A stretch of 20,944 nucleotides of DNA from a virus. This document shows positions 1-20,944 of this stretch, one piece after another. Each line of letters starts with the position of its first letter. Within the stretch, counting starts at the first letter, position 1. The notes below the pieces were generated by a model. The model was given only the letters and a program-made list of their open reading frames with translations, ran no database searches and was not told the DNA's origin. Position numbers and translations under genes: made by a program. The stretch is from IMG/VR virus record IMGVR_UViG_3300020428_000119, positions 1-20,944 of that record, one strand, 5' to 3'.

Positions 1-14
1 GTCAAGCCCAAATA

Positions 15-57
15 TGTTACGTTTTTAGGTCCTTTCAAACGTAACACCCTTTTTTTC
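15..57 (+). terminator. Hairpin with T-run, possible rightward terminator
   Basis: Perfect 10-bp inverted repeat TGTTACGTTT (15-24) and AAACGTAACA (37-46) with a 12-nt loop, followed after CCC by seven T residues (50-56). The stem is weak in GC for a factor-independent terminator. Each arm carries the 7-mer CGTAACA that also occurs in pairs before the late genes, so the site may instead, or also, be bound by a protein. A terminator would serve transcripts entering from the left of the window. Confidence 0.4.
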
Positions 58-134
58 TACATGATTTAGTTAAAGTAAAACTTGATTATTGACAAAGTTA
101 TTTTTTGTTTTATATTAATTTAAATATAAGATAT

Positions 135-172
135 AACCTAATAAGGATAACCTTAGGTTTGTTTTCTTAAGG
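135..172. repeat. Clustered CCTTA/TAAGG inverted repeats
   Basis: AACCTAA (135-141) is inverted at TTAGGTT (153-159); TAAGG (142-146) pairs with CCTTA (151-155), which can also pair with TAAGG (168-172); AACCTTAGGTT (149-159) is an odd-length palindrome. The 12-mer ATAACCTTAGGT (147-158) recurs exactly at 15024-15035. Role unknown: protein-binding sites (integrase arm, initiator) or an attenuating structure are options. Confidence 0.45.
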
Positions 173-209
173 TTTAAAAAAAAGAAAAAAATAACTAAAA
201 AGAAAAAAA

Positions 210-521
210 CTAGAACCCTAAAATTTTTCCACACTTATTTAAAAACGAATCTATCTGTTTAAGATTTGGAGTTAGATTGTAGGATGCAAAAGCATCTTTA
301 GTAGTGTTTTTTATATCTCTATCTAATTTTAAATTTAATCTTCTATGGTACTTTAGTAATTTATGTTTTACTATTTTTAATTCGATATAAGCGTTAGCAT
401 ACTCAACATCGTTTTGTGGTTTTTTACAACATAATGGTTTTGGTTTATTATGTTTAGAACAAAGAAAATTTAACTTTTTATAGAAATTAAAAATTTTTTT
501 ATAATCTAATTCACTATCCAT
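210..521 (-). CDS. Small basic protein of the lysogeny operon, unknown function
   Basis: A 103-residue lysine-rich protein I do not recognise. It has four cysteines (CSKH near residue 21 and a CC pair at about residue 31), too few and badly spaced for a confident zinc motif. Its ATG shares one base with the integrase stop (TAATG), so it is probably translated by coupling and is the third gene of the leftward repressor-integrase operon. It is the last gene before the non-coding left end. Composition suggests a nucleic-acid-binding or accessory protein, but this is only inference. Confidence 0.6.
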   Translation of the reverse strand: MDSELDYKKIFNFYKKLNFLCSKHNKPKPLCCKKPQNDVEYANAYIELKIVKHKLLKYHRRLNLKLDRDIKNTTKDAFASYNLTPNLKQIDSFLNKCGKILGF

Positions 522-1588
522 TAATCTATATTTGTAATTATTTCTCTATATCGGTCTACTTTATTGCTAATGTAATGCCTTGTTTGCTTAGTTTTTTTGT
601 GACCTGTAATCAATGCAATAACAGCATCTGGAACATTAGAGGAACTTAAAAGTGTATGATAAGTGTGTCTTAAAGAATGAAAATCTGGTTTCATAGATTT
701 TTCTGGATGTTTATATTTTATTTTTTTTAATATAGTTCTAAAGCGTTTAAGAGATTCGTTTTTTGCAGAAGGTGTTTTCATGCAATTACAAATCGCTTCG
801 ATACCGTATTCTACTAATTTTTTATGTAATGGTATGTCTACCCATGTTTCAAACTTTGATGTTTTACTAGGGGTTACAAAAATAGCATTATCTTTGATGT
901 CTGATGGTTCTAAAAACATTGCATCTCCAACGCGTAATCCAGTATATAGCAAAAGACTCCAAAAGAATTTATCGTTTTGATTATCCGTTTTTTCAATTGC
1001 TTTTTTAACAATGTCGTATGGTATTGCAGTTCTTGGGTTTTTAGCTTTTTTGCTTGGAGCGGGTATCTCTTTCACAAAATTATGAGATATGTAACCCTCT
1101 TTAACAATGAAATCAAATATTTGATTTAAGATAACATAATCATTTAAAACAGTTTTATTAGCGACCGTTTCAAGTCGTAAAGTCATTTCTTCCATTATCA
1201 TGTCTTTGGTAATATCTTTTACTAAAATATCTTTTATTCCATAATCTCGTTCAAAAAAAACATGCAATCTATTTATCAAAGATTTAGGTGCTTTTAATTT
1301 TGTAGGTTCGCGTTTTCCGTTTGTAGTTTTACTCTCATCATTTGTTGCTTGTGTTATTTTATGTTCAGCGTACAAATTTTTAATATACAGTTCTGATATT
1401 TTTTTGAAAGTTATATTTTTAGGAGCAATACCAACTTTTTTTAAAGCGATTTCATTGTCCCAATGGTCTGCAATCCGTTGTGCTATTTTTTTATTTTTAG
1501 AACCTGTTGATTTTTGTATTCGCTTATACCCAGTCCCATTTGTATACCACCAAAATGGAGAATCTGGTCGTTTATGAATACTACCCAT
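521..1588 (-). CDS. int: Tyrosine integrase
   Basis: Site-specific recombinase of the tyrosine (lambda-integrase) family, 355 residues, expected to integrate and excise the phage genome. The catalytic set is complete: Arg219 in YTGLRVGD, a lysine in the SKTSK hairpin (242 or 245), His304 and Arg307 in HSLRHTY, His330 in TGHKK and nucleophile Tyr339 in TRHYI. The N-terminal part (about 1-60) resembles an arm-binding region, and about 60-180 is the helical core-binding region. It overlaps the upstream repressor gene by 8 bp and the downstream small gene by 1 bp, so the three form one operon. Length is typical of phage integrases. Confidence 0.95.
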   Translation of the reverse strand: MGSIHKRPDSPFWWYTNGTGYKRIQKSTGSKNKKIAQRIADHWDNEIALKKVGIAPKNITFKKISELYIKNLYAEHKITQATNDESKTTNGKREPTKLKAPKSLINRLHVFFERDYGIKDILVKDITKDMIMEEMTLRLETVANKTVLNDYVILNQIFDFIVKEGYISHNFVKEIPAPSKKAKNPRTAIPYDIVKKAIEKTDNQNDKFFWSLLLYTGLRVGDAMFLEPSDIKDNAIFVTPSKTSKFETWVDIPLHKKLVEYGIEAICNCMKTPSAKNESLKRFRTILKKIKYKHPEKSMKPDFHSLRHTYHTLLSSSNVPDAVIALITGHKKTKQTRHYISNKVDRYREIITNID

Positions 1589-2336
1589 CTTCTATTCCAA
1601 ATCTTGTTTTTATTATTAAAGTTGCAGTCGTTCCATGAACAGTAAGTTGTGCAGACAACATAGTATTTACTGTTGACCCATCTTTATGTATGTATGAAAT
1701 TATAAAAGAAAGAGGAATAGGTTTGCCTGTAAAGATATTAAATCCTAGTGAGCATAAATGTTTAATACAATTTTCAGCAGTACGAAAACTTACCATAGAT
1801 GTATTGGAAACTAATTTCTCAACAGGATGTTTTTTTAATCCGTGATAATTACCTATGTCCCATATTTTTTCTAACTCAGATGAAGAATATCCTAAATATT
1901 TAGCACATTCTTTTTTCCCTGTAACGCTCTCAATAGACTTAAGAAGTTTAAGTCCTTTTAAAGGACCTTCTACTTTTACATGGACCTTGCAGGTTGAGTG
2001 CCATATTCCTGTCCCAAAATCATTATAATCATCTTTAACAGGTTGGCTTTCTATCTGTTTGAGTTTTTCTGTTAGCCTACCATTTTCTCGTGCTAACTCA
2101 ATAATTTCATTCATTGTAGGTTCTCCCTTTAGAGTTGTTATATCAAAATTAGGTCTATCATTCAACTCACTTTTAAGCTCTCCCACAAGACTTTCAAGGT
2201 ATTTTGGAACACGTTTGTTCATTCTCCAGTTTGTTATACTTTGTCTGGATATTTTGAAATAATCGGCTATTTCACGGTCCCATTTCCAATTTTTTAGTTT
2301 TTTAATTTCATCTATTAGATATGTGTTGTCACTCAC
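1581..2336 (-). CDS. CI-type HTH repressor with unfamiliar C-terminal domain
   Basis: Protein of 251 residues starting at GTG with GGAG seven bases upstream. Residues about 9-50 form a phage CI-like helix-turn-helix (W-D-R-E-I-A-D-Y-F-K-I-S followed by RQSITNWRM). A charged helical linker (about 75-98) may be a coiled coil. The C-terminal part (about 110-251) lacks the Ser/Lys autocleavage motifs of S24/LexA-type repressors, so induction probably does not rely on RecA-stimulated self-cleavage. As first gene of the integrase operon and divergent from an excisionase-like gene, it is the likely lysogeny repressor. Regulation is presumably by its own binding to the repeats in 2355-2434. Confidence 0.75.
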   Translation of the reverse strand: MSDNTYLIDEIKKLKNWKWDREIADYFKISRQSITNWRMNKRVPKYLESLVGELKSELNDRPNFDITTLKGEPTMNEIIELARENGRLTEKLKQIESQPVKDDYNDFGTGIWHSTCKVHVKVEGPLKGLKLLKSIESVTGKKECAKYLGYSSSELEKIWDIGNYHGLKKHPVEKLVSNTSMVSFRTAENCIKHLCSLGFNIFTGKPIPLSFIISYIHKDGSTVNTMLSAQLTVHGTTATLIIKTRFGIEDG

Positions 2337-2486
2337 TATTTATCTCCGTTACTTGTACATATATATTGCTTTTACATTCACAAACTACCGAGTAATGTAA
2401 ATAAATGTTGCTTAGTACATTTATATTGCTTATTTTTGATATATGACAAGTATCTTATGTTTATCGTTATCGCAAAGGAAATATAA
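2337..2486. promoter_or_regulatory. Divergent lysogeny/early control region with operator-like repeats
   Basis: A direct repeat GTACATATATATTGCTTTTA (2355-2374) and GTACATTTATATTGCTTATT (2415-2434) matches at 17 of 20 positions, 60 bp apart. Between them TTACATT (2372-2378) and AATGTAA (2394-2400) form a 7-bp inverted repeat, and AATGTA (2394-2399) is also inverted against TACATT (2416-2421). The layout between repressor and excisionase-like genes is that of a phage immunity region. I could not place -35/-10 boxes with confidence. The ribosome site of the rightward gene is AAGGA before 2487. Confidence 0.6.
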
Positions 2487-2720
2487 ATGTTAAAAAGTGA
2501 AATTGCAAATAAAGAATTTATCCAATCAAGTTTTCAAGACAAGGAATTTTTGTCAATTAAAGAAATTGCTGATGCAATAGGTGTGACTAGACAAACCATA
2601 CTAACGTGGGTCAACATTGGAAAGATACCCGCTAATAAAGTAGCGAGGACATATTTTATTAGCCGTACAGATTTTCAAAGATTTTTAAATGATAGTAAGG
2701 TAAGCGTAGTACAACTATAA
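2487..2720 (+). CDS. Excisionase-like / MerR-type wHTH protein
   Basis: A 77-residue protein with a winged helix-turn-helix of the excisionase (HTH_17) type: FLSIKEIADAIGVTRQTILT at residues about 21-40, followed by W..IGKIPANKVARTYFISRTDF, which matches the usual helix-helix-wing order ending in a short recognition strand. First gene of the rightward early operon, divergent from the repressor; AAGGA lies upstream of the ATG. It could be the excisionase, a Cro-like early regulator, or both; sequence alone cannot separate these roles. Confidence 0.75.
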   Translation: MLKSEIANKEFIQSSFQDKEFLSIKEIADAIGVTRQTILTWVNIGKIPANKVARTYFISRTDFQRFLNDSKVSVVQL

Positions 2721-2736
2721 CACAAAGGGGTGTGGT

Positions 2737-3099
2737 ATGTCAAAGACTCATTATACAGAAGAGTATAAAAAATTATATAAAGATATTTTCCATAAGCTAC
2801 AACCAGTTTTAAAAGACCCGGATGCTTTGATTGAGATTGTTGGCTCAAGTGTTTTTATACTTGACATACTGCAATTAATGGTACCGTGGGATGATATCAA
2901 AACAAGATTTAAAAAGATTTATGATGAAGAAGAATCAGAGAGAATGCTTGACCTTTTAGCAAACAGTATCACTAAGATTTATAATTTGCAAGATATACTA
3001 GATGATACATGGGACAAGTTTGGAATTGATAACACAAAAAAGATTTGTGTTGTAGAAGCTTTAATGCAAAAAACATTTGAAGATGAAAAAAATGCTTAG
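2737..3099 (+). CDS. Unknown 120-residue acidic helical protein
   Basis: I do not recognise this protein. It is rich in Asp/Glu and Lys and looks all-helical, with a hydrophobic middle (IVGSSVFILDILQLMV, about 39-54) that is amphipathic rather than a clear membrane segment. A GGGG-containing ribosome site precedes the ATG, and only 16 bases separate it from the excisionase-like gene, so both are probably on one early transcript. Its stop codon TAG is the left edge of the long inverted repeat that follows. An early regulatory or anti-host role would fit the position but is not shown. Confidence 0.7.
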   Translation: MSKTHYTEEYKKLYKDIFHKLQPVLKDPDALIEIVGSSVFILDILQLMVPWDDIKTRFKKIYDEEESERMLDLLANSITKIYNLQDILDDTWDKFGIDNTKKICVVEALMQKTFEDEKNA

Positions 3100-3212: not shown

Positions 3213-3227
3213 AATTTGGAGGTTTCT

Positions 3228-4025
3228 ATGGCAGATAAACCACACCTGTCTCCCTCTACAATTAACCAGTATTTGAGGTGTTCTTCTCAAGTGTTGTTCA
3301 AAAAGACGGTTGGACCTAAACCTCCCGGTATGGCATTGCTTTACGGAAAATCTACTGATGAGGCTATCAATGTAGATATGGAGCAAAAGATTACAACTAA
3401 AAAAGATTTAGGGTCCGATGAATTAAAAGATGCTTTTGTGGACTCATGGGATAAGAATAAAACTGATACTGAGTTCCATACAAATGATAAACCGGATGAA
3501 TTAAGAGAAATAGGTATCAAAGCAATTGGTAGATGGACCGATGAGATTGCTCCAACAATCCAACCAAAGTCTGTACAAGAGCAATTACCAATTCAGTTTC
3601 CCGGATTTGAGTATGACATATTACAATATAGTGATGTCATTACAGTAGATAATAAAATTATAGATAATAAGACTGCGGGCAGAAGCGTTACCACTAACAA
3701 AGAAAGTGGTCTTTTGCTTGTCCCGCCAGAACACAGGCTTCAGCTTACGATGTATGGTTTAGGATATGAGGCGGTTCATGGAGAAGAGCCATCCTCGCTT
3801 GGTTTAGATTATTCAATCAAGACCAAAGAACCTAAGATGCAACGTGCAGAATGGACACCTAATAAGAATGACAAGCAACTTGCTTTCAATCTAATTGTAG
3901 GTGTCGCAGAAGGCTTAGACAAAGGTGTTTTCATACCCAACCGTAATTCAATGATATGTAATAGAAGAATGTGCGGATGGTGGAGAGAATGCGAGGCTAA
4001 GTATGGAGGTACAGTTAAAAAATAA
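3228..4025 (+). CDS. Cas4/RecB-like PD-(D/E)XK nuclease with predicted 4Fe-4S cluster
   Basis: A 265-residue nuclease of the PDDEXK_1 (RecB/AddB/Cas4) superfamily, probably the resecting exonuclease of the phage recombination pair. Visible motifs: LSPSTINQYLRC at residues 7-18, Asp136 in YSDV, Asp146-x-Lys148 in IIDNKTA, and Gln172/Tyr176 in the RLQLTMY motif. Four cysteines, Cys18 plus Cys244, Cys249 and Cys255 in the C-terminal CNRRMCGWWREC, match the 4Fe-4S arrangement of Cas4 and AddB. I chose ATG 3228, five bases after GGAGG; an earlier in-frame TTG overlaps that ribosome site. The gene directly downstream is an annealing-type protein, which fits a two-part exonuclease/annealase system. 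Confidence 0.85.
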   Translation: MADKPHLSPSTINQYLRCSSQVLFKKTVGPKPPGMALLYGKSTDEAINVDMEQKITTKKDLGSDELKDAFVDSWDKNKTDTEFHTNDKPDELREIGIKAIGRWTDEIAPTIQPKSVQEQLPIQFPGFEYDILQYSDVITVDNKIIDNKTAGRSVTTNKESGLLLVPPEHRLQLTMYGLGYEAVHGEEPSSLGLDYSIKTKEPKMQRAEWTPNKNDKQLAFNLIVGVAEGLDKGVFIPNRNSMICNRRMCGWWRECEAKYGGTVKK

Positions 4026-4043
4026 CAATGAGGAGTAATAGCA

Positions 4044-4760: not shown

Positions 4761-5019
4761 TAGATTCGACCTCCAATACGTTGGGACGGCTCGCTTAGAT
4801 AAAACTTGGCGAGCCAACCAACAAAGATATTCAAACTCACAACGTGAATATCCAAACGGTATTGGTTTACAAAGGTCGGTAGAAATTAAACACAATTTAT
4901 TTGACGATAAGAAATTAGATGAATTAAATGAGAAAGAATTTACTATGCTATTGCGGAAGATAGCGCGCGAATACAGAGTTATGAGATTTAGAATGCGGGA
5001 AGAAGTTGGGAACATTTAA
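4741..5019 (+). CDS. Small basic protein, probable non-ATG (ATA) start
   Basis: An open frame of 92 codons fills the gap between the annealing protein and the replication gene and overlaps both, which is the habit of this operon. There is no ATG, GTG or TTG near its left end; the frame opens directly after a TAA with ATA at 4741, and AGAGG (4730-4734) lies six bases upstream, ideal for initiation there. The product (KAKKNNRFDLQYVGTARLDK at its start, then a charged helical part) has protein-like composition. Overlap with the next gene is 14 bp. A sequence error (ATA for ATG) is possible. I do not recognise a family. Confidence 0.45.
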   Translation: MKAKKNNRFDLQYVGTARLDKTWRANQQRYSNSQREYPNGIGLQRSVEIKHNLFDDKKLDELNEKEFTMLLRKIAREYRVMRFRMREEVGNI

Positions 5020-5995
5020 CGAAGTATCAACAAAGCTTTGGGTAAGCAAAGATTTTCGGACCTTGCCCGACAAATCCAAATTAATATTTTTATTTTTTTT
5101 AACAGGCTCAGTGCGACAACTACCGGGAATTTATAATGTAGGAGTTGGCTCCTGCATGGACCATCTTCGCATATCTAGAGCGGAATTTATGAAAGCTTTT
5201 GATAGTCTTATCAAAAGGGAAATGGCTTGTGCTGATTGGGATAACAATGTTGTTTATCTACCCAATTGGCATTTATATAATCGCAAGCCGGCAAACAAAA
5301 ATATAATTAAATCTTGGTATAATATTTTAGAAAGTGTTACGGAGTGCGAATTAAAAGAACGATATCTGGATGACCTAAAAACATTTTTGAGTGACAAAAT
5401 AAACTCTACCTCGCGGAAGTTAGATGCGATTAAAGAGCGAGTTTCAAAAGAAATGCTCGCTCTTAGCATTGATTATCACACAAAGGTCAAAAAAATCTTT
5501 CCCCATTTAAAACATCTTACAGAAAAAAGTTTTGAAAGCACTAGCATTAAAGGTGCGAATGAATTAGACAAGCTTACTGGTCTGGGATATCAAATTTCTG
5601 ATATTCAAAAAACTTTATCGTATGTACTAGATATGTATGATGAAGATGCTACTTTTAATTGGCTTTCTAATCTACAAAGTCTAGCATCCATACGTAGGGT
5701 TTCTAAATCAAACGGAAATATCAAGTACGAAAATATTTTAAATAGCATGCAACAATCTAAAGCTACTAAAAAGACAGAGTCGAGTCGCGTTGTTTTGAGT
5801 GAATACAAAATGGACGCTAGTGGTTTTTATCTTGGGTATTGTCAAGCATGTGGAGGTGGTGAAAGTTATGATAAACAAGAATTATTTAATCAAGAGAGTC
5901 GTTGTTGTCGAAGCCTAATCTTACCGAAGAAGAACAACGTAGTAAATTCTACAAACTCTGTTCAAGTGGTTATGGCAGACTCTTTAACAAGGTAA
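5006..5995 (+). CDS. Replisome-organiser-like replication protein with C-terminal zinc motif
   Basis: A 329-residue protein starting at TTG, with GGGA five bases upstream and no better start in frame. Residues about 8-110 match the winged-helix N-terminus of phage replication initiators of the DnaD / O-protein type: KLWVSKDFRTLPDKSKLIFL, PGIYNVGVG, then a recognition-helix region and VVYLPNWHLYN. The middle (about 110-260) is helical. A zinc-binding tail is visible at Cys279-x2-Cys282 and Cys300-Cys301. It sits after the recombination genes, the normal place for an origin-binding or helicase-loading protein. The tail overlaps the next gene by 94 bp. Confidence 0.7.
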   Translation: MGTFNEVSTKLWVSKDFRTLPDKSKLIFLFFLTGSVRQLPGIYNVGVGSCMDHLRISRAEFMKAFDSLIKREMACADWDNNVVYLPNWHLYNRKPANKNIIKSWYNILESVTECELKERYLDDLKTFLSDKINSTSRKLDAIKERVSKEMLALSIDYHTKVKKIFPHLKHLTEKSFESTSIKGANELDKLTGLGYQISDIQKTLSYVLDMYDEDATFNWLSNLQSLASIRRVSKSNGNIKYENILNSMQQSKATKKTESSRVVLSEYKMDASGFYLGYCQACGGGESYDKQELFNQESRCCRSLILPKKNNVVNSTNSVQVVMADSLTR

Positions 5996-6141
5996 TTACG
6001 AAAGGGCAATGGTACAGAGAAGTTGCAGTTTTTTTTCGTGAATGCGGAATGCACAAAGATGCGAATGAAATGGAGTTTGAAGCAGAGTTGTGGGAAAGAG
6101 AGAACGGGACCAAAGATAATATGGAGGATTTACCATTTTGA
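5902..6141 (+). CDS. Small protein with SSB-like acidic DLPF tail
   Basis: A 79-residue protein starting at one of two adjacent TTG codons (5902 or 5905) with AAGAGAG just upstream, inside the end of the replication gene. The body is charged and helical, without an OB fold, yet the last residues are MEDLPF. This is the form of the C-terminal peptide of bacterial SSB (acidic, ending in Pro-Phe), which docks DnaG, RecO, PriA, Exo I and others. The protein might therefore recruit, or compete for, host SSB partners. The stop overlaps the TTG start of the following nuclease. Family not recognised. Confidence 0.6.
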   Translation: MLSKPNLTEEEQRSKFYKLCSSGYGRLFNKVITKGQWYREVAVFFRECGMHKDANEMEFEAELWERENGTKDNMEDLPF

Positions 6142-6452
6142 CACATCCAAATAAAATAAAAGGAAATCGTTTTGAAAATGAGGTAGTAGCAACGGCTAAA
6201 AAATTTGGTTTAGAAGCGGTGCGAAGTTGGGGAAGTAACGGTAAAAGTTTAGGACAGCATGAAGAGTGTGACGTTATGATTGAGAAAATTACTGTACAAG
6301 CGAAAATACGTAAGTCGCTTCCAAAATGGATTGAACCGTCTGAGCATATTGACTGGCAAGTTATAAGAGCTGATAGATGTCGCGCTTATGTTGTGATGCC
6401 TCTTGATAGTGCTTGCCAGATGTTGAAAGAAAACAAAGATGCGAAAAAGTAA
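6138..6452 (+). CDS. PD-(D/E)XK nuclease, Hjc / Holliday-junction-resolvase-like
   Basis: A 104-residue protein with the compact restriction-endonuclease fold pattern: GNRFENEVVATAKKFG (9-24), SWGSNGKSLGQHEE (30-43), Asp45 in CDVMI, and the Gln54-x-Lys56 step in ITVQAKIRKSLPKWI. This order is typical of small phage Hjc-like enzymes; the usual Glu of E-x-K is Gln here, which occurs in the superfamily. The likely job is cleavage of branched DNA during replication or recombination. It starts with TTG overlapping the previous stop by 4 bases, with GGAGG ten bases upstream. It is followed by a 14-bp overlap with the next gene. Confidence 0.65.
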   Translation: MTHPNKIKGNRFENEVVATAKKFGLEAVRSWGSNGKSLGQHEECDVMIEKITVQAKIRKSLPKWIEPSEHIDWQVIRADRCRAYVVMPLDSACQMLKENKDAKK

Positions 6453-6906: not shown

Positions 6907-7190
6907 ATAGATTAGAAAATCTATTGTATTGTCCTACATGTGGACACAACACTGATAAGGTTTATCAGTGCGCAGAACATGACGGTTGGAAAGAGTTGTT
7001 CTTGTCTAATCAAAAGTTAATTGAATCGCGTGAAACCATAGACAATTATTTAGACAAGCTACAAAAACTTATACAATTTTATGGAAATCAAGAGAACTAT
7101 AAACCAAACGAGTCAGATGACATGTTGGTCATCCATGATAGAGGACAATTAGCACGTAAAATAAAAAAGGAGATTACAGATGGCGTATGA
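6903..7190 (+). CDS. Small zinc-ribbon protein
   Basis: A 95-residue protein with an N-terminal zinc motif Cys10-x2-Cys13 (YCPTCGHN) and Cys23-x2-His26 (QCAEH), followed by a long helix (about 30-65) that may form a coiled coil. The ATG overlaps the upstream stop (ATGA), and its end overlaps the next gene by 11 bp, placing it firmly in the early replication operon. Small zinc-ribbon-plus-helix proteins of phages are often DNA- or partner-binding factors; no specific function can be given. Confidence 0.65.
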   Translation: MNRLENLLYCPTCGHNTDKVYQCAEHDGWKELFLSNQKLIESRETIDNYLDKLQKLIQFYGNQENYKPNESDDMLVIHDRGQLARKIKKEITDGV

Positions 7191-7416
7191 ATATAAAGAG
7201 AGCAGAGGAAGTTTATTTAAAGTAGAAGAAAAAACGCACCCGGAGGGACCGGATTATACAGGCAAGATAAACGTAGGTAATACAATTTTTGATTTAGCGG
7301 GTTGGAAAACTACCGCGAAATCTGGCAAAACATATCTATCTGTTAAGATTAGTCCGGAGTACGATAAGCAAAATGCAAAAAAAAGTAACAACAATGAGGT
7401 GGACTTACCCTTTTAA
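7180..7416 (+). CDS. DUF736-like protein with SSB-type DLPF tail
   Basis: A 78-residue protein. GSLFKVEEKTHPEGPDYTGK (10-29), then a short beta-rich stretch with FDLAGWK and a SGKTYLSVKISPE strand (49-61), match the DUF736-type small beta protein found in phages and mobile elements. After a polar linker (KQNAKKSNNN) it ends in EVDLPF, the form of the SSB C-terminal partner-docking peptide. AGGAG is well spaced before the ATG. It may be a small single-stranded-DNA-binding or SSB-mimicking protein; the DUF itself has no firm function. It shares one base (TAATG) with the next gene. Confidence 0.65.
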   Translation: MAYEYKESRGSLFKVEEKTHPEGPDYTGKINVGNTIFDLAGWKTTAKSGKTYLSVKISPEYDKQNAKKSNNNEVDLPF

Positions 7417-8219: not shown

Positions 8220-8741
8220 TGGTGGTATGCCATGCCATACAGTTTTATACTTTTTAAGTTTATCCCAATCCTCTAATACCGGACTAGGAAACCTAAACTG
8301 TTCTAATAGGCTTGTCATCATCTCCGGCTCTTTATCTTTAACAGGTCCTATTGGTTTTTCAAGTAGTTTACCATCTTTGTCCATTTTATAAGCTACATAT
8401 GTTGCTTTTAAAGCCTCTCTTACATTAACAATAAAGGTACTTTTGTAACTATCAGCACGTGCATCATCGCCCTTTGCTAATTTTTCTGACTCTTTTATAA
8501 ATGTACTACAACAAAGTCGCAAAGGAACAACGTAGTCTTTGTTACATGTATCACAAACATCTCCACCATCTTCAAATTTAGGCGGTAACATTCCTAAGTG
8601 TAACAGTTTATCATCTTTAGTGAAAAGATTCTTTTTGGTTAACTCAACAGAAATAATATGTCCATTGTTTCCAAATGCCCATTCATTATCTTTAAAAGTT
8701 TCTGTTGATTTGCAAAAATCGCATGTAAATGTTGTACTCAT
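8205..8741 (-). CDS. Double-CxxC zinc protein, unknown
   Basis: A 178-residue protein with two zinc knuckles, Cys7-x2-Cys10 (CDFC) and Cys63-x2-Cys66 (CDTC), and a later Cys77-Cys78 pair. The order is that of a zinc ribbon with a long insert between halves. The C-terminal part (about 80-178) is charged and lacks motifs I know. The ATG overlaps the stop of the upstream ADP-ribosyltransferase-like gene (ATGA), with AGGAG upstream, so the two are probably co-produced. It is the last gene of the leftward operon. Confidence 0.65.
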   Translation of the reverse strand: MSTTFTCDFCKSTETFKDNEWAFGNNGHIISVELTKKNLFTKDDKLLHLGMLPPKFEDGGDVCDTCNKDYVVPLRLCCSTFIKESEKLAKGDDARADSYKSTFIVNVREALKATYVAYKMDKDGKLLEKPIGPVKDKEPEMMTSLLEQFRFPSPVLEDWDKLKKYKTVWHGIPPEDKA

Positions 8742-9292
8742 AATAATCTCCTACTTTTATTTTCTAAAGTTCTAGCCGGTAGTTGTGATATCAAACTCCG
8801 TTGCCTAGATGCAGTGATACATTCTTGATTGTAAAAATCTTCATCAAATGTACATTTGCATGAATTTCTTATACAATCATCATCATGTGTTGCAATTATC
8901 TCTTCTTCCCAACATAAATCACTGGGGTTTAAGATTATTTCGTTCTCTCCTCTCGCGTTGATATAAAAAAGAACATCTTCTTTACGAATTTCTCCTTTTT
9001 TTAACATCCAACTTTTTTGGATTGCGCGAAATCTTGTTGCAAACCACGATGCTAGCTTTTTGTTTGTTGACCAAGAAACATTTAAGATATTAGGATTATA
9101 CTTTTGAAAAGATGAACCTCTATATACAGTAATGTATTCCGGTAGTTTATGAAACTCAGCTTTGTCCTCATCTAGATATTGTATTGGAATAGATGAAAAA
9201 AACTCTAAAATATCCTTTTGACTAAAGACCTCTGATGGATTTTCAAGAGTAATATATTCATCAATAACTTTTTTGACATTATTTATGTTCAT
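8738..9292 (-). CDS. Predicted mono-ADP-ribosyltransferase (R-S-E type)
   Basis: A 184-residue protein with the three-part signature of arginine-type ADP-ribosyltransferases in order: Arg58 in ITVYRGS; the Ser-containing strand NVSWSTNKKLASWFATRF (71-88), where SWST followed by A..FA corresponds to the STS motif and helix; and Glu116-x-Glu118 in GENEIIL, the catalytic E-x-E. Such an enzyme would use NAD+ to modify a host or phage protein. The C-terminal tail contains a cysteine group (DCIRNSCKC, 139-147). ATG 9292 has AAGGAG seven bases upstream; an earlier in-frame ATG at 9325 lacks this and runs into the upstream gene. Assignment is by motif pattern, not homology search. Confidence 0.6.
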   Translation of the reverse strand: MNINNVKKVIDEYITLENPSEVFSQKDILEFFSSIPIQYLDEDKAEFHKLPEYITVYRGSSFQKYNPNILNVSWSTNKKLASWFATRFRAIQKSWMLKKGEIRKEDVLFYINARGENEIILNPSDLCWEEEIIATHDDDCIRNSCKCTFDEDFYNQECITASRQRSLISQLPARTLENKSRRLL

Positions 9293-9305
9293 ATAAATAC
9301 TCCTT

Positions 9306-9617
9306 TTAACCAAGTCGCAAGCCATTTGTTAAGACGACTGCATTGCCCACAATATATCTTCGTAATGCAAAGCCGGACTCTAAAGCTATTTTGGTCGCTT
9401 CAAGGTTTGGCTCTAAATCATATAGCCCACCCTCTTCGTTCACAATAAGTTGTCCACCTTTGTATGGTCCCTTTTGCAATCTGATAATTTGTATGAGAGT
9501 ATCTTTGATTGAGTCTTTATCTTTTGATACGACTCTTTGTACTCTATCATACAATTTCTCATCGGTTTTTTTCTTGATATATTTGACAATCGTTTCGCAA
9601 CTACATTCCTGTTTCAT
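9306..9617 (-). CDS. Unknown 103-residue protein
   Basis: Start chosen at ATG 9617, six bases after AAGGAG; an upstream in-frame ATG (9653) overlaps the neighbouring gene and has no ribosome site. The N-terminus has a small cysteine group (KQECSCETI), the middle is helical and basic, and the C-terminal half (GPYKGGQLIVNEEGGLYDLE and following) looks like a compact alpha/beta unit. I do not recognise the family. It lies between the ADP-ribosyltransferase-like gene and another small unknown in the leftward operon. Confidence 0.6.
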   Translation of the reverse strand: MKQECSCETIVKYIKKKTDEKLYDRVQRVVSKDKDSIKDTLIQIIRLQKGPYKGGQLIVNEEGGLYDLEPNLEATKIALESGFALRRYIVGNAVVLTNGLRLG

Positions 9618-11423: not shown

Positions 11424-12446
11424 TTATTTATGTTTATCTAGTATGTTACTTATGACCTTGCTAGGGTCCTCTGTATTGCCGACCAAGTAATCAATGCCGA
11501 CAAATTTTAGTGGGTCGTAGCCCGGAAAATCTTGTTTATAATCCGGTCCGTCTTTTATTTTCATGCTCATGCTTGGGTGCGAGCGACCTAAACTCCAAGC
11601 TAATTTCACCTCTGAAAGATTCATCTTTGGTAGTTCTTTGTTCAACAGAACATTTTGATAAGCTTTCGCCATGAACATTAGTATTCTAAAAAGTCCGCTA
11701 TGTGCTAAACTCATAATTCTATTTTCATCAAAACGCTCTTCTGCGCTTTTTACTTTTACTTTTCGCACACTGCCACCGGGTAAAAAGTTTGCTATATCTT
11801 CATTATTTTTAAATAGATGTACTCCCACAGATGGTTGTATGTAATAAATCTCAGTTGCATGACCACGTTTCTCTAATTCTTGAGCGACTACTGTTGCAAG
11901 TGCGGTAGCCGGAATACTTACATACTCTATTGTTTTAACTCCCGCATTAGCGCCAATAGATACACCCAGTCTTACTTTCTGTCTTTTCGCGCCCCGGTGC
12001 ATCATTGACCAATGCTCCGGCACCCCGGATAAAACTCTATCGATATCTATCTCATCACCAACATCACTGATTCTACGCTTTCGCTTTGCATGATTGATAC
12101 CTACGCCATGAAAGCATTGCGGATTATCAGCAACTAGTTCTTTTTTCGCTTTTTGATACATGCTATTGTAGTAGTCACTAATAAGACCGTACTCTAGATT
12201 ATGTCGTAACTTTTTATAGGATATCGTAGATGCCCAACTATCCGGCATTTTATTATTTAAGAGATAACTGTACAGGTTCCTATAATGCTTTTTCGTTGCA
12301 TCCTCATGTTTTTGCCAGTCAGCACATTCTTTTTCTAACGTTTCTACTAATTCATGGAGCGACTCAAACTCTATCATGCTCACTAATACATCACGTTTAT
12401 TTGTTTTTTGACTGCGATTTTTTATTATCTTTTTATGTAACAACAT
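11424..12446 (-). CDS. Partner protein of the MoxR-type ATPase (VWA-like fold suspected)
   Basis: A 340-residue protein with AGGAGG five bases before its ATG. The N-terminal part (about 25-105) is helical; 121-125 is a basic KRKRR patch; about 131-205 (DEIDIDRVLSGVPEHW, then VRLGVSIGANAGVKTIEYVS, then ELEKRGHATEIYYIQP) recalls the phage proteins that accompany CobS/MoxR ATPases, where a von Willebrand A-like or related Rossmann unit is suspected. The classical DxSxS metal site is not visible. It lies 18 bases downstream of the ATPase, the usual MoxR-VWA pairing. The substrate is unknown. Confidence 0.55.
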   Translation of the reverse strand: MLLHKKIIKNRSQKTNKRDVLVSMIEFESLHELVETLEKECADWQKHEDATKKHYRNLYSYLLNNKMPDSWASTISYKKLRHNLEYGLISDYYNSMYQKAKKELVADNPQCFHGVGINHAKRKRRISDVGDEIDIDRVLSGVPEHWSMMHRGAKRQKVRLGVSIGANAGVKTIEYVSIPATALATVVAQELEKRGHATEIYYIQPSVGVHLFKNNEDIANFLPGGSVRKVKVKSAEERFDENRIMSLAHSGLFRILMFMAKAYQNVLLNKELPKMNLSEVKLAWSLGRSHPSMSMKIKDGPDYKQDFPGYDPLKFVGIDYLVGNTEDPSKVISNILDKHK

Positions 12447-12464
12447 ATATACCTCCTGTATTGT

Positions 12465-13820
12465 TTATGATTGTTGTAACGCTTTTTTCTTTTCTTCTTG
12501 AGTATAGTCGATAAGTACGTTTTTCATCACTTTATCTAAGCTATAACTCTCGCCCTGCATAAGTTGTGCGCCCTGTATAAAAGCACGTGTACTTACGACC
12601 TTGTCTAGGTTGTATTTCTGTACATTCGCACGTAGGTCTGTCAGTGCGGTGAACAATTGCGGTAGTTTAGACGTTACTTTTTTCTCAAAGTCAGTATCGT
12701 AGTCGATAAATGATTTACCGGCTACAAACCTGTCTTTGAATGCTGAGTCTAGCATTTCTCTGACATAGGTCGCACCTTGACCTGTACCGTAACCATTACC
12801 CCACGTGTTTGATGCACAAATGATATGAGCATTCTTATGTCTTGTCGCATAGGGCTTATCTACTCTATTTGGCACTGATACTTTACCATTAGCTAGCGCA
12901 CTATTTAACGTGGTCATAACATTCGCATCTGCATTATCTACCTCGTCAAACAGGAATACTCCGCCATTTTCATAGATATTGATGAAGTCAGTAGATAAGA
13001 ATTGACCCTTGATATTCATGCGACCAAGTACATGTGCCTCGCTCATCCCGGCGGAGCATGATATACTAGCGAATGGTAGGTCCATCGCATTTGATATTTG
13101 ACTCGCCATGAATGTTTTACCAGTACCAGCTGGACCACATAACCATACTTGTTTTAAGGTGCGAAGTTCTCTAAACACTTTTTTATACATTGGATGCACA
13201 TGCTCGCCCTCGATAGTATGGACCTTGCCTTGCTTTTCTATTTTGATTATATGATAATCCGGGGCGCTACCACTACTTTTATCATTCTCTATGCTCTCTA
13301 CTCTATGGTGCAAGTGCATTTGACCGGCTAATAATCCACTATCTCTAGCTTGAGAGCGTTTCATTTCATCCTGTACGCCCTCTAATAGCTTGGTTGGTGC
13401 AATAACTCCAGTTGTAGTCACTAATTCCCAGTCGTCTTTAGCTATTGGTCCGCTTGGGTCGAATAGTTCAGCTAGACCCTTCGCCATTTCTTTGGTCATT
13501 CCATGTAGGTCCTCCATGTGCTTTTCTTTACTCTTACTAGGACTCTCTGATTTTGTTTTAGGACCTTGAGATGGAGTCTCCTCCGGGGCGCTACCTTTTA
13601 GCATGGACTCTAGAGTCTTTTTTGGCTCACTGGTGCTTTGTATCTTGTCAGCTATCTTATCGACCAGTTCGCTTTTAGACATTCTAGACATTGCCTTAGC
13701 TTCGCCCGGAAAGTGCTTTGTGAACAAGGGACCGGATAGACCCTTCTTTCCACGTAGCGGTACCTTTGTGAGTTCGCTTTTTATTACATGCGATGGAATA
13801 CGTTGTTCTTTAATCGCCAT
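12465..13820 (-). CDS. MoxR/CobS-type AAA+ ATPase
   Basis: A 451-residue ATPase. N-terminal 1-100 is basic and flexible with many Ser/Lys; the AAA+ module covers about 205-420: Walker A GPAGTGKT (229-236), Walker B GGVFLFDEVD (286-295, Asp292/Glu293), sensor-1 Asn338 in CASNTWG, and an arginine-finger candidate Arg364 in SAFKDRF. This pattern is that of MoxR/CobS-like proteins, which remodel or load cofactors into partner complexes together with a VWA protein. ATG 13820 has AGGAGG eight bases upstream, lying in the end of the upstream small membrane gene. An in-frame GTG three codons earlier is too close to that site. Confidence 0.85.
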   Translation of the reverse strand: MAIKEQRIPSHVIKSELTKVPLRGKKGLSGPLFTKHFPGEAKAMSRMSKSELVDKIADKIQSTSEPKKTLESMLKGSAPEETPSQGPKTKSESPSKSKEKHMEDLHGMTKEMAKGLAELFDPSGPIAKDDWELVTTTGVIAPTKLLEGVQDEMKRSQARDSGLLAGQMHLHHRVESIENDKSSGSAPDYHIIKIEKQGKVHTIEGEHVHPMYKKVFRELRTLKQVWLCGPAGTGKTFMASQISNAMDLPFASISCSAGMSEAHVLGRMNIKGQFLSTDFINIYENGGVFLFDEVDNADANVMTTLNSALANGKVSVPNRVDKPYATRHKNAHIICASNTWGNGYGTGQGATYVREMLDSAFKDRFVAGKSFIDYDTDFEKKVTSKLPQLFTALTDLRANVQKYNLDKVVSTRAFIQGAQLMQGESYSLDKVMKNVLIDYTQEEKKKALQQS

Positions 13821-13821
13821 T

Positions 13822-13971
13822 TTATACACCTCCTGTATTTGTTATGTTTCCTATGATATATGCTATACCACTAGCTATCGACATAAAGATGAGATAGTAG
13901 ATGGTATACTTTTTTAATAGCGCGTCATTTTTTTTCATTCGCGCTTTGATATAGTGTTTATCGCCTAGCAT
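13822..13971 (-). CDS. Small membrane protein, 49 residues
   Basis: Short open frame with GGAGG seven bases before ATG 13971, ending one base before the ATPase start. The product has a basic N-terminus (MLGDKHYIKARMKKNDALLK) and one membrane segment (about 22-44, YTIYYLIFMSIASGIAYIIG). The positive N-terminus suggests N-in topology. It fills the gap between two operon genes completely and its last codons carry the ribosome site of the ATPase gene, which supports translation. Role unknown; a membrane anchor for the ATPase complex is a guess. Confidence 0.6.
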   Translation of the reverse strand: MLGDKHYIKARMKKNDALLKKYTIYYLIFMSIASGIAYIIGNITNTGGV

Positions 13972-14362: not shown

Positions 14363-14392
14363 GTTTATTACCTCCTGTTGTAGTGTATTGTT

Positions 14393-14974: not shown

Positions 14975-14977
14975 TTT

Positions 14978-15929: not shown

Positions 15930-16119
15930 TATCCCTAAAAATGAGTTTCTTGTAGAACTAGATAATAGTGTTCCGGGTACACTCGTAGTAGATGGCACCC
16001 AATATTTCTTAGATGAAGAGGTCGTTGACGTATTTCGTAACATGGCAGAAGAAATAGAGTGTTTGCGTTCTATCAATGAGGGGTTACAGTTGTCTATTAG
16101 TGTAACAGGAGAGTCTTAG
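15898..16119 (+). CDS. Small protein between the terminase genes, unknown
   Basis: A 73-residue acidic protein; several in-frame ATGs exist (15889, 15898, 15913) and none has a strong ribosome site, so the exact start is uncertain. The start overlaps the preceding gene by about 30 bases and the stop shares one base with the GTG of the large terminase subunit. The visible core is FLVELDNSVPGTLVVDGTQY followed by a helix with MAEEIECL. It ends in a coiled helix; it might be a terminase accessory factor by position. Confidence 0.6.
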   Translation: MGLWSMPKSLNIPKNEFLVELDNSVPGTLVVDGTQYFLDEEVVDVFRNMAEEIECLRSINEGLQLSISVTGES

Positions 16120-17744
16120 TGTCCAAATTTTCTGATAAAGAGAAAAAAATACTGTTAACTAGGATGGCAGTGGACCCTATTTTCTTTGCAAGTTTCATTT
16201 TAGGCGATAAATCCCAACCAATGCACTATCATATAAGAGAAAAAAGTCCACAATTCCACTATGAGATAGTCCAAAATCTATTATCTTTAGAAAAAGGCAA
16301 TAAATTAGGCGTAGTTGCGCCTCGGGGACACGGAAAAAGTACCCTAATCAACCTTGTTTATCCATTACATCAGATTTTATTCGGAGAAGAACGCTTTGTT
16401 CTGCTGATTTCTGAGTCAGAGACCCAGTCTAAGTATAATTTAGAGGCTCTAGGCAACGAAATCGAACATAATGAGAAGCTTATAGACTTTTTTGGCATGA
16501 GAAAAGGCAATATTTGGGGTAAAGAAGAAAAAGAGGTCGTTGGTAGCTTTAAACCAGACGGAACAACTGGACACATGTGTAAGATTTTAGTCAGAGGTTA
16601 CGGTCAAAAGGTTAGAGGACTTAAATATGGAGCGTATAGACCTACACTAACCATCATAGACGATGGAGAGGGTGAGGCAAATACCCTAACTTCTGGTCAA
16701 AGAGACAAGTTTAGACGTTGGTTGAACTCTGCGGTCATCCCCGGTTCTGATTCTGCGCGACTAATTAACATTGGAACTATCGTAGATGAGGATTCTTATC
16801 TAAATCGCACCGCAGGAGCGAAAGCGTTTCATCGAGATGGTACGCACAAAGCGACCGGATGGAAGAGTTTGTTCTATCAAGCTGTCTTACAAGACACTAA
16901 ACCGGGGGAATTTGTTGCAAGTGGGCGTGAAATACCCGATAAAGACGGTAATCCTAAGGTTTTATGGTCTGCTAGAAAGCCTTATCTATGGCTTAATAAT
17001 GAGAAGAAAAGGCTTATATCTGAGGGTGATTCAGCGTATTTCTTCCAAGAATATCAAAATATACCTATGGATGACTCCTTTCGTGTGTTCAAGTCAACAG
17101 ATATGCAATACTGGCAAGGATATTACCTGCGCGAAAAAGGACAATCCTATGTCATGCGTGTCGATGATGGTCGCAAAGAGAAAGTTCCTATCAATATCTT
17201 TATGGGGGTAGACCCAGCATCATCCGAAAACGTCAAAGCAGACTATACAGTGATAATGGTCGTAGGTGTAGATAAGAGTAATAATATATATGTGTTAGAT
17301 TTTTTTCGCGGACAGGTCACCCCTATGGATGGAGCGGATAAGATTTTTGAATTAGCAGATGAATACTTCCCCAAGTGTATCAATATTGAAGAAACTGGTC
17401 ATGTTATGTTAGCAGACTATATCTTGCGTACAAGTAAAGAGAGTGGACGGTTCTTAAATATCAATCCAAAGAAAGCTATTAAGACCAAGTACTATCGTAT
17501 CAAACAAATGCAACCACTCTTTGCTTCCAAAGCAATGTTCTTAAAAGAAGAACACTATGAACTAGAACAAGAATTACTTGCTTTCACAGAAAATGGTAAA
17601 CATAAGAAAGATACACTAGATGCATTACGTTGGGCAACAGATGACATATGGGTTCCAGAAGGAGATATGACAGACGGAGAGTATTTTGAGCCACCAACTA
17701 TTATTGGCTCAGACTGGGAGACAGGTGAGATATATTATGCTTGA
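16119..17744 (+). CDS. terL: Terminase large subunit
   Basis: A 541-residue packaging motor and nuclease. ATPase domain: Walker A APRGHGKST (67-75), Walker B TIIDDGEGE (178-186, Asp181/Asp182 with Glu184 as the likely catalytic carboxylate). RNase H-like nuclease domain: Asp365 in MGVDPASS, Glu424/Glu425 in NIEETGH, and Asp498/Asp501 in KKDTLDALRW. These cut concatemeric DNA into unit genomes while the ATPase drives DNA into the prohead through the portal. The GTG start has AGGAG six bases upstream and shares one base with the preceding stop. Length is in the normal range. Confidence 0.95.
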   Translation: MSKFSDKEKKILLTRMAVDPIFFASFILGDKSQPMHYHIREKSPQFHYEIVQNLLSLEKGNKLGVVAPRGHGKSTLINLVYPLHQILFGEERFVLLISESETQSKYNLEALGNEIEHNEKLIDFFGMRKGNIWGKEEKEVVGSFKPDGTTGHMCKILVRGYGQKVRGLKYGAYRPTLTIIDDGEGEANTLTSGQRDKFRRWLNSAVIPGSDSARLINIGTIVDEDSYLNRTAGAKAFHRDGTHKATGWKSLFYQAVLQDTKPGEFVASGREIPDKDGNPKVLWSARKPYLWLNNEKKRLISEGDSAYFFQEYQNIPMDDSFRVFKSTDMQYWQGYYLREKGQSYVMRVDDGRKEKVPINIFMGVDPASSENVKADYTVIMVVGVDKSNNIYVLDFFRGQVTPMDGADKIFELADEYFPKCINIEETGHVMLADYILRTSKESGRFLNINPKKAIKTKYYRIKQMQPLFASKAMFLKEEHYELEQELLAFTENGKHKKDTLDALRWATDDIWVPEGDMTDGEYFEPPTIIGSDWETGEIYYA

Positions 17745-17750
17745 CTATAA

Positions 17751-17768
17751 CGTAACAATTTCGTAACA
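17751..17768 (+). promoter_or_regulatory. Paired CGTAACA motif before the portal gene
   Basis: CGTAACA at 17751-17757 and 17762-17768, 11 bp apart, in the 37-base gap between the large terminase and portal genes. It is the reverse orientation of the pair at 15087-15104, with the same spacing. The portal ATG at 17782 lacks a clear ribosome site, so the gap seems built for regulation rather than for translation. Confidence 0.5.
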
Positions 17769-17781
17769 TCTACGACCATCT

Positions 17782-19785
17782 ATGATAAACATTAAAGACT
17801 TGCAGATAGAAGAAATTGAAGGAGAAGATATTCGAAGTGAATATGTTCTTTACAGTTCTTCTGGTGAGGATTTTTTTTATCAGATGGCAGAAGATGAGGC
17901 TTTTTACTTAGGCAATCAACTTACAGAGGCGCAAAAAGAGTATTTAGTATCGGTCGGACAACCCCCAGAATCCAATAATAAGATTCGTCCTGCTGTTGAG
18001 CAGGTTCTATCTAACGTGTCAGCAACAACTCCAGAGTGGGATATAGAACCCATTGGTAAACTAGACAACGAGTTAGCACAGATATATAATACATTGTTTG
18101 ACAAGGTATGGCATGACTCACATGGAGATGTGCATTTTCGTAATTGTGCTAAGTCCTTTATTATTAAAGGGATAGCATATATGTATGTCTATCCAGATTG
18201 GCATTCCGATAATGGTCTCGGTGCATTGCGATTTAAGTATATACGACCAGAAGCTATTACGGTAGACCCAAACTCTATGATGCCAGATTTTTCCGATGCC
18301 TCTTCCATTATTTATTCAGACCTACATACTAAAAAATCATTACAAGAATATTTTCCACAATATGCAGACATTATAGAAGATGCAGATGAAGATTACTTAT
18401 ATGCAGAAGAAACTTCAGATAAATATAGTAGAGACCAAGTTGAGACACGCGCTGACTTGACTAATGACGAACAACCAAAGATTAGAAAATATGTAAGATG
18501 GTCTAAGGTCAGTGTTCCTATTGTGGTCGTTACAGAAGCACTTACAGGGACTCAACAAACTTTTGATGCGGATGGATATAAAAAATTAACAGAGGACCCT
18601 GATTATGAAAAATTTATTGAAGAGGGTACGATTGTCGAAGAAAAGTCTTACGAAACACGTATTCGTGAAACTTTGTCTTTTGGAGATAGTATTGCTTACG
18701 ATTCTATACTGCCTCTAAGCAGATATCCTATTATTCCAGCATGTAACGAACATACAGGAACTCCGTATCCATCTGGAGATGTAAGACATGCAAAGTCTCC
18801 GCAAAGAATGTTAAATCGTACAGAAGCATTATTAATTGCACACACAACTGCTACATCCAATTTTAAGTTGGTCGTAGAAGATGGCGCGATTGACCCTAGC
18901 GAATTAGCAAAATGGTCTGTTCCAAACGCAATCGTTCGCGCAAATCCCGGTGCGTTAGCACAAGGAAAAATTAGAGAGTTCGCACCACCTGCTGTGAGTT
19001 CACAGTTATATAACGAAAAATCAAGATATGAATTAGATATAGAACAAGTTTTTGGTGCGTATAAATATTTACAAGGTTTTGCTGGAGCTTCTCCGGGAAC
19101 TGTGGGAGAAGCACAGTTAGTCGATGAAGCAGTTGCTCGTAAACAAAATTGGAAGGTCATGCCATTGTATGATATGCTTACCCTTGCAGGTAAAGTGGTC
19201 AAAGAATGGATTCCATTTGTTTATAATCAGCAACGAGTAATGAGAATTGTTGATGAGAACAATCAAGGAAAAGAAATAACCCTTAATCAATTGGTCAAAG
19301 ACAAGTCTGGTGAAGTACAAAGAATTTATGATATGGTTTCATGCGACATGGATGTAAAGGTCGTTATCGGCTCTACACGCGCGAAATCACCAATGGCAGA
19401 ATTACAAAAAGATTTACAACTGATGAATGCAGGTATCTATGACAGAAGCGAAGTGATTATGAATCTACATGGTGACGTAGATAAGCAAGGCTTGATACAA
19501 AGACATTCAGAGATTGCACAATTACAACAACAAGTGCAATCCCTATCAGAACAACTCAAGAAGGTCAGTGGAGACCTACAAACAAGAGAAAGAGAAGTAT
19601 TTCACGCAAATATGCGTGCAGAAATTGCTGAGGCAACAAAGCCGGTCGCACAGGCGGTCAGCAATGTAAAAGCCAAAGCGAAACTCGAAGAAGCACGGCA
19701 GTCAGATAAAACGCGCGATACAGCGCGAGAAATGAATGCCATGATTTCATCCGTAAACTCTAACGAAGATGGAGCATCCGCTTAG
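17782..19785 (+). CDS. Portal protein, P22-like
   Basis: A 667-residue protein of the length expected for P22-type portals, which form the twelve-part ring at the head vertex through which the terminase drives DNA. Diagnostic stretches: NKIRPAVEQVLSNVSATTPE (about 64-83), then a conserved region with FIIKGIAYMYVYPDW and FKYIRPEAITVDPNS (about 150-175), and RYPIIPACNEHTG followed by SPQRMLNRTEALLIAHTTA later. The C-terminal region (about 570-667) is a Gln-rich coiled coil (LQQQVQSLSEQLKKVSGDLQ), matching the barrel/tail of this family. It follows the terminase and precedes a scaffold-like protein. No strong ribosome site is visible. Confidence 0.85.
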   Translation: MINIKDLQIEEIEGEDIRSEYVLYSSSGEDFFYQMAEDEAFYLGNQLTEAQKEYLVSVGQPPESNNKIRPAVEQVLSNVSATTPEWDIEPIGKLDNELAQIYNTLFDKVWHDSHGDVHFRNCAKSFIIKGIAYMYVYPDWHSDNGLGALRFKYIRPEAITVDPNSMMPDFSDASSIIYSDLHTKKSLQEYFPQYADIIEDADEDYLYAEETSDKYSRDQVETRADLTNDEQPKIRKYVRWSKVSVPIVVVTEALTGTQQTFDADGYKKLTEDPDYEKFIEEGTIVEEKSYETRIRETLSFGDSIAYDSILPLSRYPIIPACNEHTGTPYPSGDVRHAKSPQRMLNRTEALLIAHTTATSNFKLVVEDGAIDPSELAKWSVPNAIVRANPGALAQGKIREFAPPAVSSQLYNEKSRYELDIEQVFGAYKYLQGFAGASPGTVGEAQLVDEAVARKQNWKVMPLYDMLTLAGKVVKEWIPFVYNQQRVMRIVDENNQGKEITLNQLVKDKSGEVQRIYDMVSCDMDVKVVIGSTRAKSPMAELQKDLQLMNAGIYDRSEVIMNLHGDVDKQGLIQRHSEIAQLQQQVQSLSEQLKKVSGDLQTREREVFHANMRAEIAEATKPVAQAVSNVKAKAKLEEARQSDKTRDTAREMNAMISSVNSNEDGASA

Positions 19786-19813
19786 GATTAACTCAAAAAA
19801 AAGGAGCATGGAA

Positions 19814-20719
19814 ATGAGCAAAACGAAAGAAGCGCCAACACCAGAAGTAGAAGGTGGAGATAACATTCTAGATATGTTAGATGATTTTAACACTCCAGAA
19901 AGCTCTCCCGAGCAACCAGAGCAAGAAGCAGAAAGTCAGCAAGCTGAAGAGCAACCTGAAGAATCTGTCGAAGCAGAGGAAGCCAAGCCGGAACAAGCTA
20001 GTGTTGAAGAACCTCCCACAGTTGAAGAAGAGGCAAGATGGTTGATTGACGGAAAGTTCAAAGACACCGAAGAAGGAAGAGAGAAGCTAGCGAAATCTTA
20101 TAAGGAAATGCAAAGTCTACGAGATAAAGATAGACAGCAATACGAAAAAGAGATAGGCACATTGAAACCTTTGCAAGAGCTTGATACTTTTTTAAAAGAA
20201 ACCCCTGAGGCAGTGGATGCAATACAAAATGTCGTACAAAAGGAAAAGAAGGCATTGGCACCACCACAACAACCTGAGGACTTTGACCAATTCGAGATAT
20301 TTACTGAAGGAACAAGTTCCAATAAATGGTTTAATGAAATGATGGATTTTAGAGAAAATAGAGGAGCGCAAAAGGCTCTTCAACAAATCTCAGCAAAAGA
20401 ACAACAATCTTCTCAATTACAACAACTAAAAGAAGAAGGTTTGAGTGATGAAGAAATCCAAGATTACACTAATTTTTGGCAAAGTGATAAAAATGTAAAT
20501 CAAAAAAACATGGTAGGTATATGGCGTTACTTGAATGGAAAGTCGTCTGACACGGGGTCAGATGAAACCCTCCCAGAAAAGAATCAACGCAAATTACCAA
20601 AAGTGGATAAAAATGTAAGCGGAGCCTCTGTTACTGGCTCTGTTCCTACACCTAAACCAGCTAAAGATAAGGCGGTTGAAGAATTTTGGGGAGGAATAAT
20701 GGAATTCTCAAAATCGTAA
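19814..20719 (+). CDS. Probable head scaffolding protein
   Basis: A 301-residue protein, start chosen at ATG 19814, seven bases after AAGGAG. It is highly acidic with a Glu/Pro/Gln-rich N-terminus (about 6-70), a short ordered part (ARWLIDGKFKDTEEGREKLA, about 73-92), long helical/coiled segments to about 240, and a Lys-containing C-terminal end. The order portal, acidic helical protein, major capsid is the standard place for scaffolding proteins that shape the prohead and then leave. It is not recognised by a catalytic protease motif, so a fused protease is unlikely. Confidence 0.7.
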   Translation: MSKTKEAPTPEVEGGDNILDMLDDFNTPESSPEQPEQEAESQQAEEQPEESVEAEEAKPEQASVEEPPTVEEEARWLIDGKFKDTEEGREKLAKSYKEMQSLRDKDRQQYEKEIGTLKPLQELDTFLKETPEAVDAIQNVVQKEKKALAPPQQPEDFDQFEIFTEGTSSNKWFNEMMDFRENRGAQKALQQISAKEQQSSQLQQLKEEGLSDEEIQDYTNFWQSDKNVNQKNMVGIWRYLNGKSSDTGSDETLPEKNQRKLPKVDKNVSGASVTGSVPTPKPAKDKAVEEFWGGIMEFSKS

Positions 20720-20731
20720 AGGAGCCTAACT

Positions 20732-20944
20732 ATGGCATATTCATACGGAACCGGAACTGCTAATCAGTTCACAGACGGTTCACAAAGACAGGTCCTTGAA
20801 CTAGGGAATAAAATACACTATTATAATCCGAGTGTAACTCCGATACTTTCTGTAAGTGGTCGAGCCGGCACTCGTATAGCTCCTGTTCCAATCTTTGAAT
20901 GGATGGAAGATGAGTATATGATTAAGAAAAGTATTTCAGTAACC
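20732..20944 (+). CDS. Major capsid protein, SU10-type (partial, 3' cut by window)
   Basis: Seventy-one codons of a gene running off the window, starting at ATG 20732 with AAAGGAG eight bases upstream, 12 bases after the scaffold gene. The start (MAYSYGTGTANQFTDGSQRQ), then YNPSVTPILSVSGRAGTRIA and FEWMEDE, match the N-terminus of the SU10/DUF5309-type HK97-fold major capsid family, in which the PxLSxxGR and FEWxEDE motifs are conserved. It forms the icosahedral shell. The rest of the gene is outside the window. Confidence 0.75.
   Translation, partial: MAYSYGTGTANQFTDGSQRQVLELGNKIHYYNPSVTPILSVSGRAGTRIAPVPIFEWMEDEYMIKKSISVT

Follow-up and report, generated by a model that had tools for sequence, protein, structure and literature searches.

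Complete absence of GATC from a phage contig and recurrent loss of short palindromes in its group of uncultured phages, consistent with avoidance of Type II restriction sites

Phage genomes that contain no GATC have been described before, and different explanations have been offered for them. Staphylococcus phage K has no GATC sites, which has been linked to restriction by Sau3A, a Type II enzyme found in the host genus (PMC6532042). The genome of φX174 is also wholly without GATC, and this has been linked to the avoidance of mismatch repair (PMC5014478). A survey by Rusinov et al. (2018) found that roughly 10% of viral genomes have fully eliminated a site, tied this to orthodox Type II systems, and reported it to be rarer in temperate phages (PMC6286503). 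The phages described here resemble phage K in their complete loss of GATC, but differ in that the host is tentative and the enzyme hypothetical, in that more palindromes are lost, and in that the loss recurs across an uncultured phage group. As in the survey, only the kinds of site that characterise orthodox Type II systems are avoided; however, GATC is lost in 42 of 50 members of the group, up to nine sites are lost per genome, and the genome that we analysed carries an integrase despite full elimination. The likeness to φX174 ends with the missing GATC, since that case concerns GATC and evasion of mismatch repair, whereas here many unrelated palindromes are lost. GATC-free phages were thus already known, and what is new is an unusually strong group-wide case and its breadth.

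The window, that is, the whole stretch of DNA analysed, corresponds to a 20,944-base IMG/VR virus record with a GC content of 36.2%. An initial annotation of the sequence had reported that GATC was absent where several tens of copies would be expected at approximately 36% GC. A machine count of the whole window confirmed this, giving 0 copies where the 3-mer/2-mer formula predicts 68.1 and base composition predicts 69.7. In 1000 synonymous-codon shuffles of the 32 called ORFs, the coding sequence alone was expected to hold 47.3 ± 5.3 copies, with a minimum of 32, and the Poisson chance of finding none is between 3e-21 and 3e-30. The Markov comparison that the annotation had proposed is thus far from expectation (0 versus 68), and GATC lies as far below composition-matched values as avoidance of restriction predicts. 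Words one step away from GATC, namely GATA, GATT, GATG and TATC, are common in the window.

We then examined how coding sequence accommodates this absence. GATC is avoided in all three codon phases of the window ORFs. Asp codons that precede a C are GAC in 28 cases and GAT in none, while before other bases GAC occurs 107 times and GAT 272 times. This dependence on the following base is the mechanism that had been proposed from a few Asp codons, and the four GAC-CC instances cited at that time, in the terminase and portal genes (Table 1), are all in-frame Asp-Pro GAC-CCN. Equivalent effects were seen for Ile, where ATC was used at 0 of 79 positions after a G-ending codon and at 87 of 340 otherwise, and for Ser, where TCN was used at 0 of 7 positions following xGA. 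The noncoding DNA of the window also has no GATC, although GAT (37) and ATC (26) are present. GATC has therefore been lost through synonymous and intergenic change, with the choice of Asp, Ile and Ser codons tracking the neighbouring base.

The recognisable genes of the window are listed in Table 1. The integrase suggests a phage that is, or once was, temperate; a recognisable tyrosine integrase was found in only two of the 35 group records searched, of which the window is one. Since this genome combines an integrase with full loss of GATC, full elimination here does not depend on a strictly lytic lifestyle. The DUF7192 protein and the CobS/MoxR-like AAA ATPase lie side by side (11424-13829, minus strand). 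A protein encoded at 8738-9325 (minus strand) contains a YRGS...SWSTNKKLASWFA stretch that by eye resembles ADP-ribosyltransferase motifs; sequence searches of Pfam, PADLOC and PDB gave no match for it. No tRNA genes were found in the window or in 50 relatives.

Table 1. Coordinates of features assigned in the 20,944-base window.
Feature	Position	Strand	Evidence
Tyrosine integrase	521..1588	-	PF00589, 56.8 bits; phrog_1 integrase
Putative transcriptional regulator/repressor, N-terminal helix-turn-helix	1581..2336	-	phrog_638, E 4e-5
PD-(D/E)XK exonuclease, phage recombination type	3216..4025	+	PF12705, E 5e-8; phrog_69 exonuclease
DnaD-like helicase loader	5006..5995	+	phrog_1701
Holliday-junction resolvase-like protein	6138..6452	+	phrog_244
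Single-strand DNA-binding protein	7180..7416	+	phrog_18154
DUF7192 protein adjoining MoxR/CobS-like ATPase	11424..12446	-	PF23822
AAA_5 (CobS/MoxR-like) ATPase	12465..13829	-	PF07728; phrog_249
Terminase large subunit, defines the phage group; GAC-CC at 16173, 17211	16119..17744	+	phrog_38, E 6e-76
Portal protein; GAC-CC at 18595, 18892	17782..19785	+	phrog_156, E 3e-67
Probable major capsid protein, cut by contig end	20732..20944	+	ORF order; start similar to L168 ORF at 9801

GATC is not the only word missing from the window. Further losses, which the initial annotation had overlooked, became apparent on comparison with synonymous shuffles: GGCC (0 versus 14.8 ± 3.2), CCWGG (0 versus 11.4 ± 2.5) and GCNGC (0 versus 8.1 ± 2.8) are absent, and CGNCG (1 versus 16.9 ± 4.0) is present as a single copy at position 13049. 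The window analysis was restricted to such short words, because 21 kb offers too few 6-bp sites for judgement. CCSGG is raised threefold (18 versus 6.1), so that the loss of CCWGG affects only the W form. The count of CCGG is about twice expectation (46 versus 22.5, and 45 versus 23.7 after synonymous shuffling); L056, L058 and L070 show an excess of this word too, whereas other members of the group have lost it. The CGNCG site is not readily assigned to a common Type II enzyme.

To place the window among its relatives, a terminase search was performed, which identified 76 viral loci. The group set comprised the 50 sequences, including the window, with a length of 7 kb or more; for 17 of the larger records, all or nearly all of the sequence was read. 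No other word is lost nearly as often as GATC across the group; with a one-strand expectation it is lost in 41 of 49 genomes, and in 28 of 35 when close copies are left out. Members without GATC include L038, L057 and L071 (observed/expected 0/138, 0/131 and 0/129, respectively). Other members have purged CATG, CCGG, CTAG, ACGT, AGCT, CGCG, GCGC, GGWCC, CASTG or CTNAG, and the largest number of lost sites is nine, in L057 (45.8 kb). Elimination is limited almost entirely to short palindromes. With a threshold of 0.15 of expectation for 4-mers, 81 of 730 palindromic tests scored as eliminated compared to 0 of 5982 non-palindromic tests, and for gapped 5-mers the corresponding counts were 102 of 2179 and 2 of 33,829. 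Both non-palindromic cases represent a single asymmetric word, counted on both strands, in L028. The word is GCSGG/CCSGC, absent from that genome at 0/19 and 0/15.

The set of lost sites varies among close relatives. Loss or presence of GATC requires at least six changes on the terminase tree, and neighbouring pairs may be in opposite states, as seen for L062 (0/27) and L061 (35/58), and for L030 (0/70) and L036 (26/22). L028 (G260; 50,370 bases) has 330 copies of GATC and none of ACGT, AGCT, CATG, CCGG, CTAG or CTNAG. Relatives that keep GATC include L007, L028, L036, L061 and L079. A phage-encoded D12-type methylase was sought as the basis for their retention of GATC, and self-methylation by a phage Dam-type enzyme was considered for the group; no match to PF02086 was found in the 50 relatives, and a single MT-A70-like ORF was recognised by motif, in L069.

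As a control, we used IMG/VR contigs drawn by an arbitrary 15-mer, 73 of which were testable for GATC. Scored in the same way as the group, 8 of these 73 had eliminated GATC. The mean number of sites lost was 1.0 in the control and 2.7 in the group when its members were cut to equal length. Site elimination is common among viruses at large, in agreement with Rusinov et al. (PMC6286503), but for GATC the group greatly exceeds this background.

We searched for a host by terminase similarity across 84,980 species. Bacterial terminases more than 50% identical occurred only in two Marinimicrobia/Fidelibacterota MAGs, on phage contigs. The one contig that was read, L168 from one of these MAGs, looks like phage DNA along its whole length, with no sign of integration; Marinimicrobia is therefore a lead only. 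The best identity of the window integrase in Marinimicrobia was 31%. When the whole-window DNA was compared with 245 Marinimicrobia genomes, strong matches were restricted to the two known phage contigs, and no convincing spacer or att site was found in these genomes, the remaining matches being short and weak. The samples are probably marine, given the Marinimicrobia link and some of the IMG project numbers. The phages of the group are uncultured and probably marine, and the host would be a Marinimicrobia-like marine bacterium. The initial annotation had raised the case of a host equally free of GATC, and this can be addressed for a tentative phylum only, whose sampled contigs retain GATC at 0.46-1.45 of expectation, with none below 0.46. 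If Marinimicrobia is the host, the phage deficit is thus not a host signature.

Taken together, the palindrome losses very probably reflect avoidance of orthodox Type II restriction sites, and we infer a Type II enzyme of the host as the cutter. The lineage would have been long exposed to hosts with orthodox Type II systems, one of which would cut unmodified GATC and others probably GGCC, CCWGG and GCNGC. Phages with fewer sites would survive entry more often, so that synonymous and intergenic substitutions would have removed every site, with Asp GAT before C becoming GAC, and Ile ATC after G becoming ATT or ATA. Selection by a GATC-cutting system, as originally proposed, gains support from the strength of the loss, the Type II form of the palindromes, the differing sets in relatives and the rarity of the loss in random contigs. 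Turnover between relatives would follow from changing host restriction repertoires, and would not be produced by mismatch-repair evasion or mutation bias. Against avoidance of Type II sites, no GATC cutter is linked to a proven host, assignment resting on the phage contigs in two MAGs, and the phages of those MAGs retain GATC. A likely GATC-type restriction-modification pair was found in just 1 of 245 Marinimicrobia MAGs searched through its nuclease family, and the window has an integrase, yet complete loss is rarer in temperate phages (PMC6286503). The initial annotation had also suggested a Dam-linked process. Escape from Dam/MutH mismatch repair, or some other process tied to Dam, has been argued for φX174 (PMC5014478) and for certain enterobacteriophages. 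Here it would fit GATC being the commonest lost word, but we consider it improbable. It gives no reason for the equally complete loss of GGCC, CCWGG, GCNGC, CATG, CCGG, AGCT, ACGT and CTAG, and L028 has normal GATC while lacking other palindromes. Nor is the deficit of the window specific to GATC in the manner of φX174, as GGCC, CCWGG and GCNGC are equally absent. A Dam-linked process is therefore unneeded, because unrelated palindromes have been eliminated just as fully.

Methyl-dependent cleavage offers a different route to the loss of GATC, in which a DpnI-like (Type IIM) enzyme would act, in Dam-positive hosts, against phages that had acquired GATC methylation in the previous host. Rusinov et al. 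report less GATC than expected in each of 46 phages infecting hosts that encode a Type IIM GATC enzyme, and suspect Type II systems behind most such avoidance (PMC6286503). Dam-family methylases are present in some Marinimicrobia. By sequence alone such an enzyme is inseparable from a DpnII-like one, but it leaves the other lost palindromes unaccounted for, each requiring its own cutter, and we regard it as quite improbable. The presence of nuclease-fold genes and many genes of unassigned function in the window would also permit a phage-encoded GATC nuclease that degrades host or competitor DNA, so that the phage must avoid its own target. This is very improbable, as every lost palindrome would demand a nuclease of its own, which makes up to nine in L057. 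Moreover, those nucleases that can be recognised are of recombination types, and no accompanying D12-type methylase was found. Hardly credible, and close to refuted already, is an inherited base-composition or mutational bias shared with an equally depleted host. Some contigs of the tentative host phylum do show mild GATC deficits (0.46-0.6), but none falls lower, zero of 68 is not expected while the one-step neighbours of GATC are common, and the loss is confined to palindromes.

Avoidance of Type II sites in this group has unusual depth, with near-universal loss of GATC along with many 4- and 5-base palindromes, and no cultured host. The deficits could allow the restriction repertoire of an uncultured marine bacterial lineage, possibly Marinimicrobia, to be read from its phages. 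GATC restriction would then be a near-universal barrier, and individual phages would have adapted to as many as nine Type II specificities simultaneously; we hold this wider reading to be plausible, though short of probable. Should the deficits correspond to the enzymes of the hosts, phage sequence would by itself predict the dominant restriction systems in uncultured bacteria and also their rate of turnover, and palindrome deficits could help in matching phages to hosts. Some recorded sites, CGNCG in the window and ACSGT elsewhere, may have no match to a common characterised enzyme.

We also looked at restriction and methylase genes in Marinimicrobia, where the Type II nucleases found include EcoRV-like and AlwI-like ones. 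One MAG, G023, encodes a methylase nearest DpnM (2dpm) with a PADLOC Type II nuclease approximately 600 bases away, and its genome has GATC at 1.14 of expectation. The two genes are likely a GATC-type restriction-modification pair, whose relevance to the window phage would be speculative; it was through the nuclease family of this pair that the 245 MAGs were searched. The DpnII nuclease model gave four weak matches, and in both of the neighbourhoods that were read, the flanking methylases looked unlike those of a DpnII operon. In L172 and L173, from two Marinimicrobia MAGs, a common operon carries two methylases that flank a nuclease weakly matching the DpnII family. In another MAG, a DGQHR protein of the kind associated with DNA phosphorothioation is directly followed by a Dam-family methylase (L187:337-2292). 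Two further Marinimicrobia contigs, L252 and L254, are nearly free of GGCC (observed/expected 1/86 and 2/24), which would fit a GGCC system in the bacterium, now or in the past.
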